A stretch of DNA of 29,901 nt from Phellopilus nigrolimitatus (lineage: Eukaryota > Basidiomycota > Agaricomycetes > Hymenochaetales > Hymenochaetaceae): positions 1-29,901 of the forward strand of contig JAJOHG010000312.1 of assembly GCA_021029095.1 (NCBI GenBank). The letters run 5' to 3'. Made by a program: the position numbers and the translations under genes. Below are positions 3,251-24,015 of this stretch, one piece after another (within the stretch, counting starts at the first letter, position 1; the number at the start of each line of letters is the position of its first letter). The notes beneath the pieces were generated by a model, which saw nothing but the letters and a program-made list of their open reading frames with translations, had not been told where the DNA came from and made no database searches.

Positions 3251-4062
3251 ATGTCGTACACCAACAGTGCGTTCACGCCTATTCATGCGCACCGCCCGAA
3301 CTAACCTCAATCTGCCGCAGACTTCACCAACACCAACGACACCACCGGCCGTCGTGAGGGCTTTAACGACACGCAGGGTGGCACCGACTCATACGGCACC
3401 GGCACCGGCTCGGGTGCATACGACCCCGCCAACACCGGCCTCGGCGGCTACGGCGGGAGCCAGACCGGTGCTGACACGCGCAACCAGGGCCAGGGCCAGA
3501 ACCGCAACCCCAGCAGCGGCAACCCGGGCTTCGGAGACTCGGACTCGGCGTACGCGCGCACCGACTCCGGCGCGACGTTCGCGCGGGGGCAGAGCCAGGA
3601 CCAGTTCGACAGCAACGACACGACGACGGGCACTGGCGTCAACGCCGGCGCCGGCCAGGGTTTCGGCCGCTCCAGCTCGGGCACCGGTGCGCGTGGGGGT
3701 TACGACCAGGGCCAGGTTAATGACGAGCTCGACCAGGCGCACCGCGAGGGCCAGCAGTCGCAGCAGTCGCGCGGCGATGCGTACGGCGGCGAGTCCCAGC
3801 GCGAGCGTGGGGGTGGAAAGCCGACCTTCAGCGACAAAATGCGCGGTACGCTCGAGTTTTAGGTTCATTTTTAAAAACAGAAAAAAGATGCTCATTAAAT
3901 TCGACATTAGGAAACGCGGAGAAGCTTGCAGGCTCCGTCGCAGGCAAGGGCGACTTGAAGGAGCGCGGCGAAGAGCGCAAGGTTTGTAATATGATTATAT
4001 ATCCCGTCAGATTCGTTAACTGCTGTTGGTTATAGGCTGGAGGGTTCGACGATCAGTACTAG
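3251..4062 (+). CDS. low-complexity presumed stress protein, tandem paralogue 1
   Basis: Four exons, 3251..3266, 3321..3845, 3911..3981 and 4036..4062, give 212 aa. The first exon is only 16 nt (MSYTN plus one base). The body is hydrophilic and rich in Gly, Asn, Gln, Ser, Thr and Asp, with no signal peptide or membrane segment, so probably disordered and cytosolic. The 71-nt third exon encodes the only compact part, RGNAEKLAGSVAGKGDLKER, a charged amphipathic segment like the short CsbD-like or hydrophilin-like modules of fungal stress proteins. Every intron position and phase matches the neighbour at 5176, which also shares blocks such as NPGFGDSDS.YARTD.GA.FA and GDAYGGESQRE. Function is not known; a stress or desiccation role is inference from composition and promoter type. 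Confidence 0.85.
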
Positions 4063-5175: not shown

Positions 5176-6121
5176 ATGTCGTCCATCCAAAGTATGTATG
5201 CGTCTTCTCATGTGCCCTGCCCAAACTTATTTTCTCCTCCCGCAGACACCAACGATTACTCTAACACCGACTCGGAATCCAACGGTGCTAGGGGCGGCCT
5301 CAACAATTCGATAGGCGGTGGTACCAAGTCTTATGGCAACGGCAACGGCACCGACTCGAGCGCGTCCGACCTCGCCAACTCTGGCACCAACAATCAGAAC
5401 CAAGGCTATACCCAGAGCCCGAGTTCCGGACCTCAGGGCGGTTACGGGAACGACAACACCGACACGCAGGACCAGGGCTCCGACCAAAACTCCAACAACG
5501 TTCCTGGTGCTTACACGGACAACAACGGCCCCAGCGCCAACACGCAGGACCAAGGCTTCGACCAAAAGTCGAGCAGCGCCTTCGGCAGCAAAGGCTCCAG
5601 CAACCCTGGGTTCGGAGACTCGGACTCCTCGTACGCTCGCACCGATACCGGCGCCAAGTTCGCGGGAGGTCAGGACGGCCAGAACCAGAACCAGTTCGAT
5701 AACAACGACTCGACGACGGGCTCAGGCACGGGCACGAACGGCGCGGACGGCTTTGGGCAATCCACCAACGACTACGACTCGACGCAGCAGTCGACGCAGC
5801 AGTCGACGCAGCAGTCGAACCAGCAGTCAGGCGACGCGTACGGCGGCGAGTCACAGCGCGAGAACGCTGGCGGCAAGCCATCCTTCGGTGACAAACTTCG
5901 TGGTACGTTCGGACTCTCGATTGGTCTTTTAATACAGTCATTAAAATCGCGTCTTTAGGCGGTGCGGAGAAGCTTGCCGGTTCCGTTACGAGCAACCCCG
6001 ACTTGAAGGCGAAAGGCCAGGAGCGGAAGGTTCGTGGTTTGCATAATTTGTTCTTGTCCTAGATGCTGACGGTTGCTGGTTGCAGACTGGAGGCTTAAAC
6101 AACAACTCCGACCAGTTCTAA
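5176..6121 (+). CDS. low-complexity presumed stress protein, tandem paralogue 2
   Basis: Four exons, 5176..5191, 5246..5902, 5959..6029 and 6086..6121, give 259 aa. Exon 1 (16 nt), intron 1 (54 bp) and exon 3 (71 nt) have exactly the lengths seen in the gene at 3251, so this is a tandem duplicate. The body is Asn/Gln/Ser/Gly/Asp-rich with internal repeats (TQDQG.DQ twice, and STQQ units). The C-terminal segment GGAEKLAGSVTSNPDLKAKG is the conserved module, followed by ERK and a short Asn-rich tail. It has about 47 more residues than paralogue 1, all in the low-complexity region. There is no targeting signal. The role is unknown; a hydrophilin-like protective function is a guess from composition. 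Confidence 0.85.
5779..5826 (+). repeat. 12-bp coding minisatellite (STQQ units)
   Basis: Three perfect tandem copies of TCGACGCAGCAG at 5779-5814 and a fourth imperfect copy to 5826. They encode Ser-Thr-Gln-Gln repeats in the second tandem paralogue. The first paralogue has only a short QQSQQS stretch at the matching place. Confidence 0.9.
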
Positions 6122-8775: not shown

Positions 8776-11700
8776 TCAGGTCGAAACCATCCCCAAATCC
8801 TCCTCGCCCCGTGGCCCAAAAATCTCCTCGAAGATAACCTTGCCGTCTGTATTCACAGGCGGCAGCTGGCGCGCCACCGCAGACGGATCGTCGCGCGACG
8901 CCTTCATACGGCGTACGCGCTCCTCGTCCCACAACCGCTCCAATACGTCTGCAAGATTCTTCAGCCCGAACAAAAACCCACGATCAGGCTGCTCAGAATA
9001 GTGCGGAGGGAAGCGCGCGTAGATCAGGCCTGACATCACGTCCACGTCTGCCTGGTAGCCCTTCCCGCTCGTGACTTCCCCCGCGAGGCGCTCGCGCTCA
9101 ACATGCGCAGGAGGGGAGTATGGCAGGTAGTCACGTCCTGTTGTCGTGTGCGCAAAATCCACAATACGCACGTTCACCTCCCCGCGCCGCCGCAATCGTG
9201 CGGGGCTCGCTGTGCTCGATTCTGACTTCTCCAGCGGACTGAGTACGATGTCCGCGCTGTGGGAGCGTCGTAGCGCACGAGCTTCCGTGCGCGAGTCGCG
9301 GTGGCGTCGATCAAGAGACTCGCCACGCTTTTTACGAGATGAAGGGCGGTCAGACATGATAGCTCGGCAGTCATCTTGCGTCTCTGGGTCGCCATCGTAG
9401 ATAAAGAGCAAGCTGCAACCGTAAAAGCGGTACCCAACGAGTCGGTTGATGATCTCGGCCAATGCGTACAGCTTCTGCAAGATACCCGGAATATGGTATA
9501 CCATGAGGCCCTCGCCATCATTCAGGAAAGACGCAAGCACAGAACGGAAATCTTCTGTCTTTATTTCTCGCCCTTTGTACTTGTCCTGAGTACGATACGT
9601 GTCCGATACACGATCCCAGACCTATTTAGAAAGTTAAAATCAAAGAAAAATCGCAGACAGAAAGAATCATACCTGCATCCCGCACATCCTACATCCGAGC
9701 GTCCTGCTCGTCGTGCGATCGCATTTCTTGCGCTGACTCCGCTTCTTCGCCGGTGTCGCGTCGATTCCATACTGCCTGGATCCCATCTTCAAATCGAGAA
9801 CGCACGGCTTCTTCAACCGACCGGTCAGGTCCTCCATCAAAATGAAGTGCTCCTGCCGGGAGAATTGCCCATCCGTAGAGTTCACTGATGAATGCATCCC
9901 ATGAAGCGAGGGCGATTGTGCACCGCTAGGAAGGTATCCTTGGATGGAGCGCGAGCGGCTCCGCCTGATAGTGCGGAAGGAAGACGCCTCATTAGTCAGC
10001 GCCGGGCGTCTGAGGGGCTGCGCAAACGCATCATCCTGTTGCGGATAGGGGCGTTCAAAAACCGGGTCGTGGAAGCTATCTCCCACCTCTTCCTCTTCCT
10101 CCGAGCGCACGCGGCGTACCTGGCTCGAGAACGCATCTTCGCTTTGTACGCGGCGCAATGCAGGCAGCTCCTCTGCCTTGAGGCGGTCCACGGCCGACGG
10201 ATAGTGTCTATGTATCCGGCGACGACGGCCCTTTGGCCCACGCCCGTACAATGACACACTCTCGAGCTCGCCATCTGCTATGTCGCCCTCGTCCTCCGTA
10301 CGCACCGCGCGGCGGTCCAGCTGACTGCGTGTACGCCGACGGAAGCGGCGCAGAATCGCACCGAAGACGTGGTCCTTAAGCTTCGTGTTCACAACCGTTG
10401 AACCCGTCCCGCCAAAAAGACAGTTCCCACCCCCGGTCGAGAGTCCTTGGCAAGTCATAGCAGAGTGCAGCGCCGGGCGCGGCCCCGATGCATCGCCTTC
10501 ACTCGCAGAGGCACGAAGGGCCAGCGGGCCCGCACCACGCCCCTCATTTGGCGAGTTCGCCGGGGTTGGCGCATCGTTACCCTCCTGGTCCTCATCCTCG
10601 TCTGCACAAGAGCCCATCACAGAAAGCAGCGGACTATGTCCTGCACACAGACGTCCTCGTGAGCCGAAAGCCTCGCCATTAGGTGCAACCGCGTAATGAC
10701 TGGCGGGCAGCGCCAGATCGGGACTCGATGCCGTCCCACGATTGAAATGGTCACGAAGAAACCGGCGGTTCACAAGGTCAGAAGGCGCGCCGCTCGTCGA
10801 GAGCGAATGACGCAAGAGACCACTACGCCCCCCGCCGCTCCGTAAGAGCCATTCAGGAACAATGTGACGATTCTTGTCAAGCACGACCTCGGGCAACTCC
10901 GTATCCGTTTCCTCTTCCTGCAATTCCGAGAGATTATGTTCGCGGTGCTCACGAGAGGAGGGCGAAACGTGCTGAAGGCCCTGCGAAGTCACTGCGCGTG
11001 GCATCGGTGGTGCTTGCGGGAACTGGATTGCATTCTGACGTGAATCAGATTCAGAAACGTCATGGCTCACGTCGTGGCCATTCACTTGCTTTGGAGGAGG
11101 AGGCGGGTTATGCTGATTATTCGACGCTTTGCGGACACGCCGGTAATTCACAAGCATGACCCCCAAATACCTCGGAATAAATTCCAACAGCTCCGGCGCT
11201 TCGCGCTCAACTGCTTCATAGAAGAGATTCTCGCGAGACACGAGCGGCTAATAAAGAAGGAGAGAGAATAAGAAACGTGTCAATAAATTAGAAGGGGGAT
11301 CTGGGATACGCATAGATACGCAGACGAGAAATTGCACGAATGAAAGTGTACCACATGAGGATAGAATTTCTTGACATGTTATAACTCGGTAGATCAACGG
11401 ATGAAGATGCAGACAATGACAAACATGCCAAATGAACGGGAATAAAAGAACACTCACTTTGCAGACCGCGCGCTTCGTGAACTTATAGATCGCGCTGTGC
11501 CCGCCAACCTGGTTACGAAACGGTCGAAGCGGAATGTGCGGCAGTTGCCCATCAAGATCAAGTTCGTCCGCGTCATGCGCAAGAGCGTCTAACCCTATGT
11601 GCTGCTGGCGCTTGCGCCCGATGATCTCGTCGTCATCACTTGCCGGCATGCCCGCGCTGCTTCGCGCGGCACGTGAGCCCGGAGAGAACGCGCGCGAGCG

Positions 11701-17864: not shown

Positions 17865-18359
17865 TCATATCTTCGTGGCGGTGTTCCATGTGTTCAAGCT
17901 CTCACGAGGAGGCGAGGAACTCGCTATCTCACAGCGGAACTTACAAGACTTGAAGACGCCGGGCGTAGATTTTCCACTGTCCTCGATAATTTCATCGACT
18001 ATACACTCGGATTGAGCCTGCGGAGCGCGATACACGGATCTACTGTCAACTACTCCATGCAGACTCGCAATACCTGATCTCCGCCGTACTATACGGCTGT
18101 GCTTCCTGGCTGAGAAAGCACCCCGGCGTTCTGGCAACTTCTAGGATGTAATTCAATCGCTTTGATCTGCGGTGCACCATGGCCGCGTAGGTGGCCTTAC
18201 ATCCCGGCACTTTCTATGATTTTCCTCAACGACGCAATCGCCTCTAATCTGCAGTGCGCACCGCACAGCGAAAGCGCTGCGCGTCGTTATCTCAGTACCG
18301 GTGAAGAAGTTTTCGATTGCGATCCGCGGGCGCCTGGTTTTATGCGCGAAGATGTATAA
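17865..18359 (+). pseudogene. possible coding relic upstream of the H3-tail kinase
   Basis: Two open plus-strand segments look protein-like. One is 17865-18074, 70 codons without a stop, including RYLTAELTRLEDAGRRFSTV and DNFIDYTLGLSLRSA. The other is an ATG frame at 18216-18359 (47 aa) ending GEEVFDCDPRAPGFMREDV. No splice joining the two was found, and no family was recognised. The second overlaps the TATA box of the next gene. This may be the end of a decayed gene, or chance. Confidence 0.2.
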
Positions 18360-18362
18360 AAA
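18355..18362 (+). promoter_or_regulatory. TATA box of the H3-tail kinase gene
   Basis: TATAAAAA, about 150 bp upstream of the ATG at 18504. A pyrimidine-rich leader (about 18430-18470) follows. A CTAG directly before the ATG, and CTCAG 19 bp earlier, could be 3' splice sites of a 5'-UTR intron. Confidence 0.45.
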
Positions 18363-18503
18363 CACTTGCTAATTAATGTATGTATTTGAATTGTGTCTGG
18401 AGCGTGTTTGCAGCCCATCACCCACATCACCCACTCTCTTTCGTTCCCCCGCCTGCCTCCTGTTCTGAACGACGCTTGTCTCAGGTCATTGGACTAATTC
18501 TAG

Positions 18504-20624
18504 ATGGCGAGAACAAAGCAGACATCGCGGCGCACGAGCTTGAGCAAACCTGCTATCATGCGCCTCCAGCTAGCTACGAAGGAACTCCAGGCGCGCGTCA
18601 GCGCACCTAAAAATAAATCGACGCGCAAATCGACGCGCAAAAGGCCTGTGAGGAAGTACTCCTCGTCCTCCGACACGCCGTCTCCCAGCGATTTTAAACC
18701 GAACAGCTTAAATGTCGAATCCGACGCGGTCACGAGGGATATCGTGGCCCGCCTATCACCGGCAACGGAGTCCGATGAGGACGCCCATCTTATCTCACGT
18801 ACGGTTACCGCCCAGGCGCTGTGGTCGCGATATTACGAGCATGGCTCATTGAAGGATCTCGAGGAGGCGATCCAACTCGATCGCGAGAGCCTTGGTCTGA
18901 GCCGCGCCCGGAAGGCCATGGGAGCTGGCGCAGACGTCCTGGAGGTCCAAGCGAATCTCGGGGTGTCACTTCTCGACCTCTTCTCGTCTACGCGCAGACC
19001 GGAGGCCCTCGCGGAGTCTGTCACACTACTCGAACAGGCGCTGGAGGCAATGTCCGCGCCAGGCGCAGGCGGCGAGGGAGGCGGCGCGCACAAGTCGCTC
19101 GCACGCACGATGACGAACCTAGGCAATGCATACCGCGCACGCGCGGAGCTGAACAACGACGAGCTGGACCTCGATCGCGCGATTGACATGCACGAGGATG
19201 CGCTGTACATTACCCCATCCGACCACTCGGAGTGGGACTTGGAGATGCGCCAGAACTGCTTGGCGAGGAGCTTGATGGCCCGCGGCTCGACCCGAGACAT
19301 CGAGCGGTCTATGGACTTGATGTCTCTTCGTCGGCGCTTTTTGAGTGAGAAGTCTACCACGGATGCTGCTCCATTGAGAGTGAACTGGACCAGAGGATAT
19401 GACGCGGACGTCGGATTGCCAGGTATATAATACCTATTCACTGGCCATGAAACGACTTGACAACTCTCATTCAGTCCCTGACCTGAGTAACCTGATCGCA
19501 AGGTTGACCAGCTTCCCGAGTGGATGTGGTGGCTTCGCGGATATTTACATGGGCGAATGGAACAAGACACGCCGTATAAAGCAGAAGGTTGCTATCAAGG
19601 TCCTTCGGCACCATGCTGTCAATGCGACGGACACTAGCGTCAGTGAACGTGTGAATAAGGTAGAGATTTATCCGATGGTTTAAAAAAAAAACTTTGTTGA
19701 GCTTCTTTCCAGATGTTGCGAGCAGAAATAAGAATTTGGCACGCGCTTGATCATCCGAACATCATTAAACTGTTGGGTACGAGCAGGGGATTCAGCCCGT
19801 ACACGTCCATGATCCTTCCGTGGCTCGCGAATGGCTCGTTGCCATCTTTCCTGAATAGACATAAGTCGTTAATTTATCCTGAGCGGCTACGCCTAGTAAG
19901 TATTATGCACGTTTGAGACTCGAATTTGTTCCTGATAAGTTCGCGTTTGTGCCAGGCTCGCGAAGTCGCTACTGGGTTGGCTTATTGTGCGTCACTTATC
20001 CTCATTTCGCAAATTCTCTCTGACATCTGAATAGTGCACTCTCATGCCATCATTCACGGCGACTTAACTGGTGTATGCATTATCTAGCCAAATGTTCTAG
20101 ATCATAACCGACCCATTTAACTTATATAACAGGCAAACGTGTTGATCAATGACGACCACGGCGCTTGTCTCTCAGATTTTGGTCTTTCCGTGCTTGCAAG
20201 AGACTTCGATATACCGTCCATGTCAAGATTCACGTCTGGCGTGGGTGGATCCGTACGCTGGACGGCGCCCGAACTATACGTCTTCGACGAGGACTCTCAG
20301 CCGTGCCTCACTTTACATAGTGACCTGTACTCGTTTGGGTCTGTTGCACTTGAGGTAAGCTGAAGAGCAACGTCTCGTGATTCCTCGAAATCGTGTGCTC
20401 ACTAGTTTTAGATATTCTCCGGCGAACTGCCGTATCACAACATCCAAAATGAGATGGAGGTGTTGCTGAAGTACGTTGTGCCTGGAATCACACCTGAGCG
20501 ACCTATGGGAAGCAAGTACGTGAAGGACAAGCATTGGGAAGCGGTGGAGCAGTGTTGGTCGAGAGACCCAAAGTCCCGACCGCCGAGCAAGACTTTATCT
20601 GCCTTGTTCGAAGAGGAAGTGTAA
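18504..20624 (+). CDS. histone-H3-tail-mimicking TPR protein kinase
   Basis: Seven exons, 18504..19422, 19475..19659, 19713..19895, 19956..19986, 20035..20072, 20133..20354 and 20412..20624, give 596 aa; all introns are 48-60 bp GT-AG and all phases fit. Residues 1-7 are MARTKQT, identical to histone H3; QLATK (22-26) and AR.SAP (30-35) follow in H3 order. Residues 35-52 are Lys/Arg-rich with a doubled STRK. Residues about 100-280 carry TPR-like helices (KDLEEAIQLDRESLGL, TMTNLGNAYRARAE, LDRAIDMHEDALYI). Residues about 317-590 form a complete kinase domain: Gly loop SGCGGFADIY, VAIK Lys348, Glu373, HGDLTGAN (Asp449, Asn454), DFG 467-469, APE 497-499. The catalytic loop is HGD, so non-RD, as in mushroom TKL-like kinases. 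There is no histone fold. Kinase activity is likely; the role of the tail is inference. Confidence 0.9.
18618..18641 (+). repeat. 12-bp coding duplication in the H3-like tail
   Basis: TCGACGCGCAAA at 18618-18629 is repeated exactly at 18630-18641. It doubles Ser-Thr-Arg-Lys just after the H3-like segment and extends the basic patch. Confidence 0.9.
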
Positions 20625-21514: not shown

Positions 21515-23822
21515 TCACGCTTGCACTTGTCCAGTGTCCAGCCTCCTTCTCTTCATCACAGGCTCGTCAAAGTCGCCCATGATATCGATCTCATCGCTGG
21601 ACTGTGGGCCTAAAGAGGAAGTAGGTGGCGTTGATATGCGAAGAGGCCCTACGGCGTTAATCATATCCGACGTGGGCGAAAGCGCCTGAGCTGGAGATGC
21701 CCCCTTTGCCGTAGTAGGATTTGTAGGCATAGGTTCAACGATAGAAATAGTAGTCCGGTGTTGACCACCCTCACTCGCAGTCCCTGCATCCGCACCGCTC
21801 GCCGCCGTAGTAGTATCGTCCTTGCCGTCCTTCTTCTTCAACACTTTATTTTTCTTCTTCCCTTTTGACTTCGAGCCCTCTGACTTGCGCTTCTCCTTGA
21901 GAAACCGCACGATGTAGCTTTGCAATATTTCAATGGCCTTCTTTGCGCCGAGCCTCTCAAGCTCCTTGAGCTGCTCTGGCGTAAGCGATGAGAAGATTAC
22001 GGGGTTGAGAATGATGGTATCGCGATGAAGGGCGATCGGCGGCGAAGATAGGTCGAGCGCGAGCGGGACTTTACTGGATGTTGCATCTGAGGGACCTGCC
22101 GAAGGAATGGAACCAATAACAATAGGTATGACGATGTCGGAGGGGATAGCAGGCAAATTAGAGTTTGGAGTAGAATTAAGTCGTGCGGTTGAAGATGCTG
22201 GGGAGCCGCCTTGCTGTCGAGTGGATGGTGCAGATACTGGTTCCGATTTTGGATGGAGCGGGACGTCTACCGGAGGCATCAACGACATAGTTTCCTGCTC
22301 GACTTTGACGGATGCTGCATTAGAGACTGCTGACCGTGCGTGAGCTGGCGCACTGTTTGTAGCGGCTGTCGTAGGAGGTAGAGATGAGCTGGTGGAAGGT
22401 AAAGATGTCGATAACAGACGTGGAGGAAGGGGCGAAGTCAGGTCCCCCTTTACGCTCCGTTTCAGCGGTGGTTCAAGCATCTTCTTTCCTTTCCCCTTTG
22501 CGTCTCCAGGTCCTTTCCCTTCTTGGTCTTTTACCAAGTGCTCAAAACGAGGGTCGATACTCCAAAAAAAGCCTTTCCCTCTTTCACCTGCGCACCTCTC
22601 CATTTTCTTGAAGGCCCTGTTGGAAGACAAATTGTGACGAATAGAACTCTATAGAATGATTAGATGGGCGGAATTTTTGCAGCAGAGAAAGAATGTCTCA
22701 CCTCCCACCCTGTTCCTTCATGGTAGCGATACCAATCAAAGCTCTCTGACACCCATATGCATATTTCCTGGAGCGTCGCCTTCCCATTTAGAGAGCTGAT
22801 AGCTTTATAGCACAATTGCGCATAAGTAAGTTGTGGTCGAGGAGGCATAATTTCTGGAGGTGGAGGTCGAGCGTCGCCGGGTTTCTTCCGCTTCTTGCCA
22901 ATCGCCTTCTGTGAAGCCTTTCCATTTTCGCTGAATTCTGGAGGTGACTTTTCGGTAACATCAACAGATGGCAACTCAACATTTGCAGCGGTTGGAGAGT
23001 GGATGGATGAGTCGGGGGAAATGGAAGTTATATCAATGGAAGGAGAAAGATGACGCGTAGTGGAGGAAGGCGAACTCGGAGAAGGCGAATCTTCGGGTGC
23101 AGGAGGCGGAGGAAGAATGAAGTGGAAAGTTCGAGTAGCAATTTGGATTTGAGACCTGTCAAAAACATCGCGGATAAAAATCAGCACATCTCGTTCAGTC
23201 ACGTGACATCGATCCAACGTTAACACCAATGTTTTGTGAGGAAGGTGGCCAAAGAGCATGCAACAGATAGTGGATAGCGGTAGCGAAAGCGAGAAAGGTC
23301 TATAAATTCATCTCCAAGTCCTATCGCAGTAGACCTTCTCTACATGCTTCCGAGTTGCGGCCGACAGGTGCCACATGGCGAAAACAAAACAAGCAAACAA
23401 AACATTTTGAAGGGGCAGAAAGCTCACCTGGCTGCCAAAGGTACTCTGCTTCCACTTCCAGACCAGATGCCATCCACCCAAGCGCCATTCCTGCCCATAA
23501 CCACAAGAACAAAGCGTTCCTGGCTTTCTTCATACTCAATTTTCGCGTGTAACCGAGATACACTCTTTAAAGGGCCCAAGTCGACGTCGACCTGTTGCGT
23601 ATCTGACGACGAAGGAGTGCCGGGTCGAACAGATCGACGACCAATAGTCACAGCGACAGTTTGTACATAGTACGTGAAGCTGGGAAAAGCGAGGCTAAAG
23701 TAGGCGCTGATCTTGTCCGGAAGCTCCTCTGGGCCAGCCTGCTCATCAGGAAGGGGTGTAACTGCCATAATGTGGTTCATGAAATCGTTGGCCTGAGATG
23801 CATGAGAATACTCCATCGCCAT
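21515..23822 (-). CDS. FHL1: forkhead-associated plus forkhead transcription factor Fhl1
   Basis: Exons complement(21515..22648, 22702..23155, 23428..23822) give 660 aa. In yeast, Fhl1 sits on ribosomal protein gene promoters and couples their transcription to TOR signalling. An FHA domain spans about 55-145: IGRRSV, the phosphopeptide-binding core SRLHAKI (89-95) and RNGAWVDG (111-118), finishing with RSQIQIATRTFHF across intron 1. After a Ser/Pro linker and a basic patch (KKRKKPGD), the forkhead domain spans about 238-319: RPQLTYAQLCYKAI, then GWESSIRHNLSSNRAFKKME and GKGFFWSIDPRFE. The splice at 22649-22701 rebuilds SSIRHNLS. The C-terminus is Ser/Thr/Pro-rich with a Lys-rich block. Intron 1 is 272 bp, the longest here. 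The first true ATG is at 23822; upstream in-frame codons start with TTG. Confidence 0.94.
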
Positions 23823-24015
23823 AATCGACGGGTGTGTCGGTAACGCGAGCAGGTTGTGTTGAAGGGAGATGATAGTCAAGAGTCAGGAAGACACATCGGC
23901 AATTTCGGCAACGGCGACTGCTTATTCGAGACACGTGGCTTCCCCACTATTGCCGTCATGTAACCCGTCGCGTCGTCCACGTTCGTTCATTCCACGCTTC
24001 TACAGCGTGCTCGCA
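23823..24015. promoter_or_regulatory. bidirectional promoter between Fhl1 and Ime4
   Basis: 193 bp separate the divergent start codons. No TATA box is visible. A CACGTGG E-box-like core lies near 23932-23938. Confidence 0.45.

Follow-up and report, generated by a model that had tools for sequence, protein, structure and literature searches.

Why should a gene for a predicted protein kinase open with the letters of the histone H3 tail, and over what length and in which relatives does the likeness hold? The window, i.e. the whole stretch of 29,901 nucleotides analysed here, constitutes the entire contig C238 of the 56.4-Mb Phellopilus nigrolimitatus assembly. A frame running from 18504 on its forward strand reads MARTKQTSRRTSLSKPAIMRLQLATKELQARVSAPKNK, and the protein is laid out as a tail, followed by TPR-like helices and then by a TK-like kinase. 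The features on which the argument depends are the following.

18504-20624, + strand: TPR-kinase gene, 596 aa; seven exons with GT-AG borders and an open frame (gene model from sequence)
18504-19422, 19475-19659, 19713-19895, 19956-19986, 20035-20072, 20133-20354 and 20412-20624, + strand: exons of the kinase gene
18354..18503, + strand: TATA-like box GTATAAAAA (18354-18362) and pyrimidine-rich leader, to 18503; putative promoter (sequence, second allele aligned)
18504..18545, + strand: H3-like N-terminal motif, residues 1-14, MARTKQTSRRTSLS (sequence, Sanghuangporus comparison, model)
18528..18542, + strand: R-R-T-S-L (residues 9-13), corresponding in position to H3 R8-K9-S10-T11 (the three Sanghuangporus orthologues have RRSSL)
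18546..18602, + strand: predicted helix, residues 15-33, containing QLATK (18567-18581) (AlphaFold2 model)
18591..18608, + strand: AR.SAP stretch ARVSAP, residues 30-35 (sequence; absent from the Sanghuangporus orthologues)
18609..18656, + strand: KNKSTRKSTRKRPVRK, residues 36-51, a cluster of basic residues that on inspection resembles an NLS (sequence; relatives P0007-P0010 likewise have basic clusters in their tails)
18762..19352, + strand: eight predicted helices forming a TPR-like repeat, residues 87-283 (Pfam, AlphaFold2 model)
19522..20597, + strand: kinase domain, residues 323-588, exons 2-7 with introns between (PF07714, E 2.6e-44)

The first point to settle is whether the protein really starts at this ATG. 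The window is collinear with C79:331426-361268 at ~97-98% identity outside one diverged stretch (~16.2-17.7 kb), and the two contigs were therefore taken as two haplotypes. The C79 allele is intact, identical exon borders keeping its frame open, and MARTKQTSRRTSLS is the N-terminus in both. Twenty-eight synonymous and nine replacement codons distinguish the alleles, with one synonymous difference and no replacement in residues 1-77, and four replacements in residues 78-115. An in-frame stop precedes the ATG in both alleles, a TAG directly 5′ of it in the window allele and, at a distance of three codons, a TGA in the C79 allele. An additional upstream exon was considered and rejected: a cryptic acceptor (CTAAT...TAG/ATG) precedes the ATG in the window allele only, and since the C79 allele lacks both this acceptor and its GTATGT donor, the ATG at 18504 was kept as the start. 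The start codon and first exon of the original prediction hold in the two haplotypes and in the named orthologues. No site was returned by a promoter scan, which is built for bacterial sites. The sole P. nigrolimitatus protein among the matches (best 120 of 735), P0013, follows the C79 allele where the alleles differ and, being only a 159-residue fragment of the kinase gene, does not include the tail. A paralogue search of the genome gave the two alleles, the next matches being TPR repeats with E values no better than 6e-10; the tail alone retrieved the two alleles only.

Other features of the window may be recorded here. The flank upstream of the kinase gene, at ~16.2-17.6 kb, has 89-91% identity between the haplotypes as compared to 97-98% elsewhere, and the ~130 bases after it are unalignable between C238 and C79. 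Segments 3519-3631 and 5598-5721 are each ~80% identical to the allelic region of the other, hence a diverged internal repeat. RIIa and cyclic-nucleotide-binding domains mark an open frame on the minus strand (797-2299) as that of a protein kinase A regulatory subunit. On the same strand there are an inositol polyphosphate kinase domain that closes a 526-aa frame (9667-11247), and FHA and forkhead domains over three adjoining frames (21515-23882), likely a single intron-bearing FHA-forkhead transcription factor gene.

The body of the protein is that of a kinase. The Pfam scan gave PF07714 at E 2.6e-44 and a weak TPR_10 match (E 1.3e-4, below the family cut-off), and there was no histone family among the nine Pfam families listed up to E 10. 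The models likewise place TPR-like helices and a kinase after the tail, where no histone fold is present, so that scan and models agree with what had been proposed from the letters. With the model of relative P0007 as query, the 50 Foldseek matches listed were all tyrosine-kinase structures. The catalytic motifs are intact, i.e. the VAIK lysine (VAIKVL), the catalytic D (HGDLTGANVL) and DFG (SDFGLS), and judging from their presence the kinase is likely to be active.

Is the likeness to H3 more than a coincidence of basic residues? MARTKQT matches H3 at 7/7 residues, R8 and K14 stand in H3 register, and QLATK and SAP are offset by 2 and 4 residues, respectively, as originally described. Hydroxyl residues occupy H3 positions 3, 6, 10 and 11 of the tip, and R and V the positions of K9 and K27. 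When 11 residues were drawn at random, 100,000 times, from residues 2-61 of the Phellopilus protein, its H3(1-11) score was never equalled; the corresponding score was reached by at most 5 in 100,000 draws for Phellopilus, P0007-P0010, P0003 and P0004. At the genome level, the DNA pattern for ARTKQT is found eight times versus 11 for a reversed control, and seven of the eight follow an ATG, namely those of five histone H3 genes and of the two alleles of the kinase gene. A looser pattern, M[AG]RxKx[TVIA][AS]R, has 11 matches in the genome, the same seven plus four in frames that end after 25-39 residues, these extras being judged on unspliced frames where spliced genes are possible. When the 48-aa tail was compared with PDB sequences, the best match had an E of 0.13 and the 60 listed out of 72 were all H3 types; with the Sanghuangporus tail no H3 was found up to E 10.

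Relatives were collected by an exon 1 search (6 matches) and an alignment search (best 120 of 735), which together gave 123 proteins to examine; the 14 called relatives below are those whose match to exon 1 has an E of at most 1e-20. A start of the form M[AG]R[TVIL]K occurs in 8 of these 14 and in none of the 109 other fetched proteins, among the matches listed. As to the six relatives that do not have the tip, P0002, P0006 and P0011 begin within the TPR part, P0017 (MTARRSSLS) at a position corresponding to residue 6 or 7, and P0016 and P0048 in the linker; P0002, P0006, P0011 and P0017 seem to be cut short. Beside that of Phellopilus, the starts are these.

ARTKLTSRRSS: Sanghuangporus vaninii, S. 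sanghuang
ARTKFTSRRSS: S. baumii
GRIKTTARKLA: Rickenella mellea
GRVKAIARKSS: labelled Schizopora paradoxa
GRVKAVARKSS: P0004
ARTKAVAVRTP: P0005
GRLKAVSNPLL: P0001

The label of the fourth line should be taken with care, as a title cited in PMC10410303 has the genome called Schizopora paradoxa KUC8140 as misidentified. Matches to H3(1-11) number 7/11 in Phellopilus and Sanghuangporus, 6/11 in Rickenella, Schizopora and P0004, 5/11 in P0005 (p 0.002) and 2/11 in P0001, the last being at chance level (p 0.22). R2 and K4 are present in 9/9 tails (Phellopilus and eight relatives), a count that is partly circular because the tails were selected for carrying M[AG]RxK. A1 and T3 are kept in Phellopilus and Sanghuangporus, while A7 and K9 are kept in Rickenella and Schizopora and replaced by S and R in the former two. 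ART occupies positions 1-3 in Phellopilus, P0005 and P0007-P0009; the other four of the nine tails begin G-R-[VIL].

Over residues 2-14, Phellopilus and each of the three Sanghuangporus orthologues (P0007-P0009) are identical at 11 of 13 positions (85%), as against 28-33% in residues 15-54, 26-33% in residues 55-97, 57-59% in the TPR part and 76-77% in the kinase. In the comparison with Rickenella and Schizopora the values are 31% for residues 2-14, 12-23% for 15-54, 7-9% for 55-97, 40-42% for the TPR part and 52-60% for the kinase. The tip is therefore more conserved than the adjoining linker and, within Hymenochaetaceae, more than the kinase too. The motif is thus kept while the linker varies (85% versus about 30% in Sanghuangporus), the pattern proposed as a check on the original prediction, and close orthologues do have H3-like residues over 1-11. 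A tree of the TPR part, with 2 of 8 inner branches well supported, puts Rickenella, P0005, Schizopora and P0004 on one side and P0001, P0016, Phellopilus and Sanghuangporus on the other; A is found at position 5 on both sides, and the Q5 of Phellopilus therefore looks derived. R2 and K4 look ancestral, both of these states being read by eye from tails picked for R2 and K4. With M[AG]R[TVIL]K opening 8 of the 14 relatives, sequence comparison makes an H3(1-10)-like start a trait of a Hymenochaetales kinase family. The short claim, that a kinase family conserves an H3-like tip, is on these alignments stronger than the original prediction knew; imitation of the whole tail is unsupported by the relatives.

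What could such a tip be good for? The reading that we favour, tentatively and with a probability placed somewhat below one half, is that a short H3 mimic would dock the TPR-kinase on a reader of unmodified or K4-methylated H3, PHD fingers and the Set1 complex being candidates. An initiator Met is removed when Ala or Gly follows, and for this reason the first Met is expected to go, leaving a free A/G-R-x-K end, which in Phellopilus would be the peptide ARTKQTSRRTSLSKPA. An H3 reader that recognizes the free start, R2 and K4 would then bind the tip, the kinase would be nuclear, and docking would direct it to chromatin complexes or chromatin-bound substrates. The predicted order of parts is flexible residues 1-13, a helix, a disordered basic linker, the TPR-like repeat and the TK-like kinase; residues 1-13 have a pLDDT below 50 and are predicted to be disordered in both the Phellopilus and the P0007 models, the latter drawing a low-confidence helix at residues 2-9. 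With K9 replaced by R and K27 by V, the tip could mimic H3 at its K4 end but would lack the two silencing lysines. A Set1-type homologue (N-SET and SET on C124, C8 and C231) and PHD fingers (15 matches) are encoded in the genome, but this is general machinery and no evidence of tip binding. Of the nine tails, four carry V, I or L instead of T at position 3 and four carry G instead of A at position 1, and H3 readers may tolerate either change poorly.

The strongest rival is that the tip is a conserved basic signal, probably part of an NLS together with a basophilic R-R-[ST]-S-L site, its resemblance to H3 being a convergence on basic, small and hydroxyl residues. We regard this as possible, if doubtful. 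R-R-T-S-L resembles a basophilic (PKA-type) phosphorylation site, and RRTSL/RRSSL is conserved across Phellopilus and Sanghuangporus; a second basic cluster exists in the tails of P0007-P0010; residues 1-50 of Phellopilus have a net charge of +15 with one acidic residue; and the H3-like motif is weaker in P0001 and P0005. However, the phosphorylation serine is missing from Rickenella, random draws from the same tails rarely attain the H3 score, and the strictest positions in the motif-bearing tails are R2 and K4, counted from the start, behind a small first residue, which suggests reading from a free N-terminus.

An extended form of the docking idea would have the tip serve, in a kinase family of an entire fungal order, as a functional stand-in for the start of H3, methylated at K4 by Set1 and then read by PHD fingers, which would wire a TK-like enzyme into H3K4 signalling. 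In that case the Phellopilus tail, an elaboration of the tip which keeps the activating K4, K14 and a K23 match and does not have the silencing K9 and K27, would be a tail that cannot be silenced. We consider this unlikely.

Another possibility, lower still in our estimate, is that the tail is a substrate or pseudosubstrate, with this kinase or another H3 kinase acting on T3, T10 or S11 and activity being controlled in cis. The hydroxyls at H3 positions 3, 6, 10 and 11 in Phellopilus and the intact VAIK, HGDL and DFG motifs of a likely active enzyme would suit it; against it, four of the nine tails have V, I or L in place of T3, and residues 1-13 of the P0007 model, with their pLDDT below 50, give no sign of docking to the kinase.

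The likeness of the second half of the tail, on which imitation over the whole length was originally based in part, fares differently. Compared with human H3, the score of QLATK/AR.SAP was reached by 0 of 20,000 shuffles; compared with the two own H3 types (spliced genomic sequence), which read QLAAKSAARKTATATT and QLAAKSQARKTAAATT there, it was reached by 353 and 42 of 20,000, so that some likeness remains. The own H3 tails (genes on C1, C213, C222 and C224) have QLAAK..ARKTA, not QLATKAARKSAP. A centromere-type H3 candidate, L058 (C79:143300-144600, KKVRYRPGTVALREIRRYQKSTDLLLRKLPFARIVR), was also noted, whose N-terminal frames read without an ARTK start. In two Sanghuangporus orthologues tested, no H3 likeness was found in the second half (2742 and 10,096 of 20,000 shuffles), and Q5, K14, QLATK and AR.SAP are missing from all three. 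QLATK falls within the predicted helix 15-33, for which the Phellopilus AlphaFold2 model (14 sequences) has mean pLDDT values of 67, 87 and 63 for residues 11-20, 21-30 and 31-40, and the P0007 model (29 sequences) has a helix at residues 15-30 with means of 54 and 67. Since Sanghuangporus lacks QLATK and AR.SAP, a helix is predicted and the own H3 is poorly copied, with K9 and K27 absent as well, mimicry along the tail as one unit was rejected as the main reading. On the model, QLATK/AR.SAP is best read as part of a helix whose letters chance to recall human H3.

The same data bear on capture of the tail, residues 1-35, as a whole from an H3 gene followed by drift. The order of QLATK and AR.SAP and the 0/20,000 result against human H3 would favour it, but in the tail the own H3 genes are interrupted by an intron (within the G13 codon) and differ in codons and residues, the corresponding place in Sanghuangporus is taken by an unrelated helix, and Q5 looks derived, which makes capture highly improbable. 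A mitochondrial presequence, to which a basic N-terminus with one acidic residue in 1-50 and a helix at 15-33 might point, is hardly probable either, as presequences generally show poor conservation of individual residues, yet in the comparison with Sanghuangporus none of the other five stretches is as well conserved as residues 2-14; moreover, residues 1-50 of the Rickenella tail include five acidic ones.

Should readers take the tip for H3, as in the docking reading that we favour, H3K4 enzymes and readers would have in fungi a conserved client that is not a histone, and imitation of a histone would put a signalling kinase on chromatin. The natural series of tips, ART, GRV, GRI and GRL, would then show which H3 positions readers truly need. 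It would also call for caution, as antibodies against H3K4 may pick up a kinase in these fungi.

How does this compare with known systems? The SNAG domain (SNAI1, GFI1), with the sequence P-R-S-F-L-V, is an H3 mimic that enters LSD1. Both it and the fungal tip stand at the N-terminus of a protein that is not a histone and resemble H3 there, R2 included, but the SNAG domain has no K4. An exon-wise search with limited candidates found 16 SWIRM matches on 14 contigs, some apparently haplotype pairs, and 10 amine-oxidase matches; 16 seem many for a fungus. Because no SWIRM match adjoined an amine-oxidase match in the genome in that search, docking on LSD1 as by SNAG domains may be the less likely. 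The bipartite import signal of H3 for Kap123 is another candidate for comparison; its first pocket, according to PMC5677370, wants Gly or Ala beside K14. Phellopilus does have K14 and a K23-like lysine, but the surroundings read S13-K14-P15, and Sanghuangporus has T14, so that a conserved arrangement of small residues next to K14 plus a second lysine is not found and an import signal of this type fits poorly. As for the enzyme, FslK are presented in PMC3937382 as fungal kinases close to tyrosine kinases and expanded in Agaricomycetes. The TK-like fold matches and the Agaricomycete distribution of the Phellopilus kinase family are in keeping with this, and the kinase may belong to the FslK lineage, on fold and Pfam similarity only; the main text of PMC3937382, in contrast, contains none of the terms ‘TPR’, ‘tetratricopeptide’ and ‘N-terminal’. 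In the open PMC literature we found no paper combining ‘histone mimicry’, ‘N-terminal’ and ‘ARTK’ and, among the matches listed, no title on a fungal H3-like kinase.

The closest parallel is provided by PAF15 and DPPA3. PMC11187062 describes the UHRF1 PHD finger as holding [AV]RT of H3, PAF15 and DPPA3 at a shared site, a helix following in DPPA3. The fungal tip similarly offers ARTK with a predicted helix from residue 15; a small residue followed by R and T at positions 1-3 is found in Phellopilus, P0005 and P0007-P0009; and the motif outlasts its neighbourhood (85% versus about 30%; 8/14 relatives). It differs in that several members have V, I or L as their third residue and in that the motif is carried by a fungal TPR-kinase family. 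H3 mimicry of the PAF15/DPPA3 type is already known, and what is new here is a kinase family as its putative carrier.
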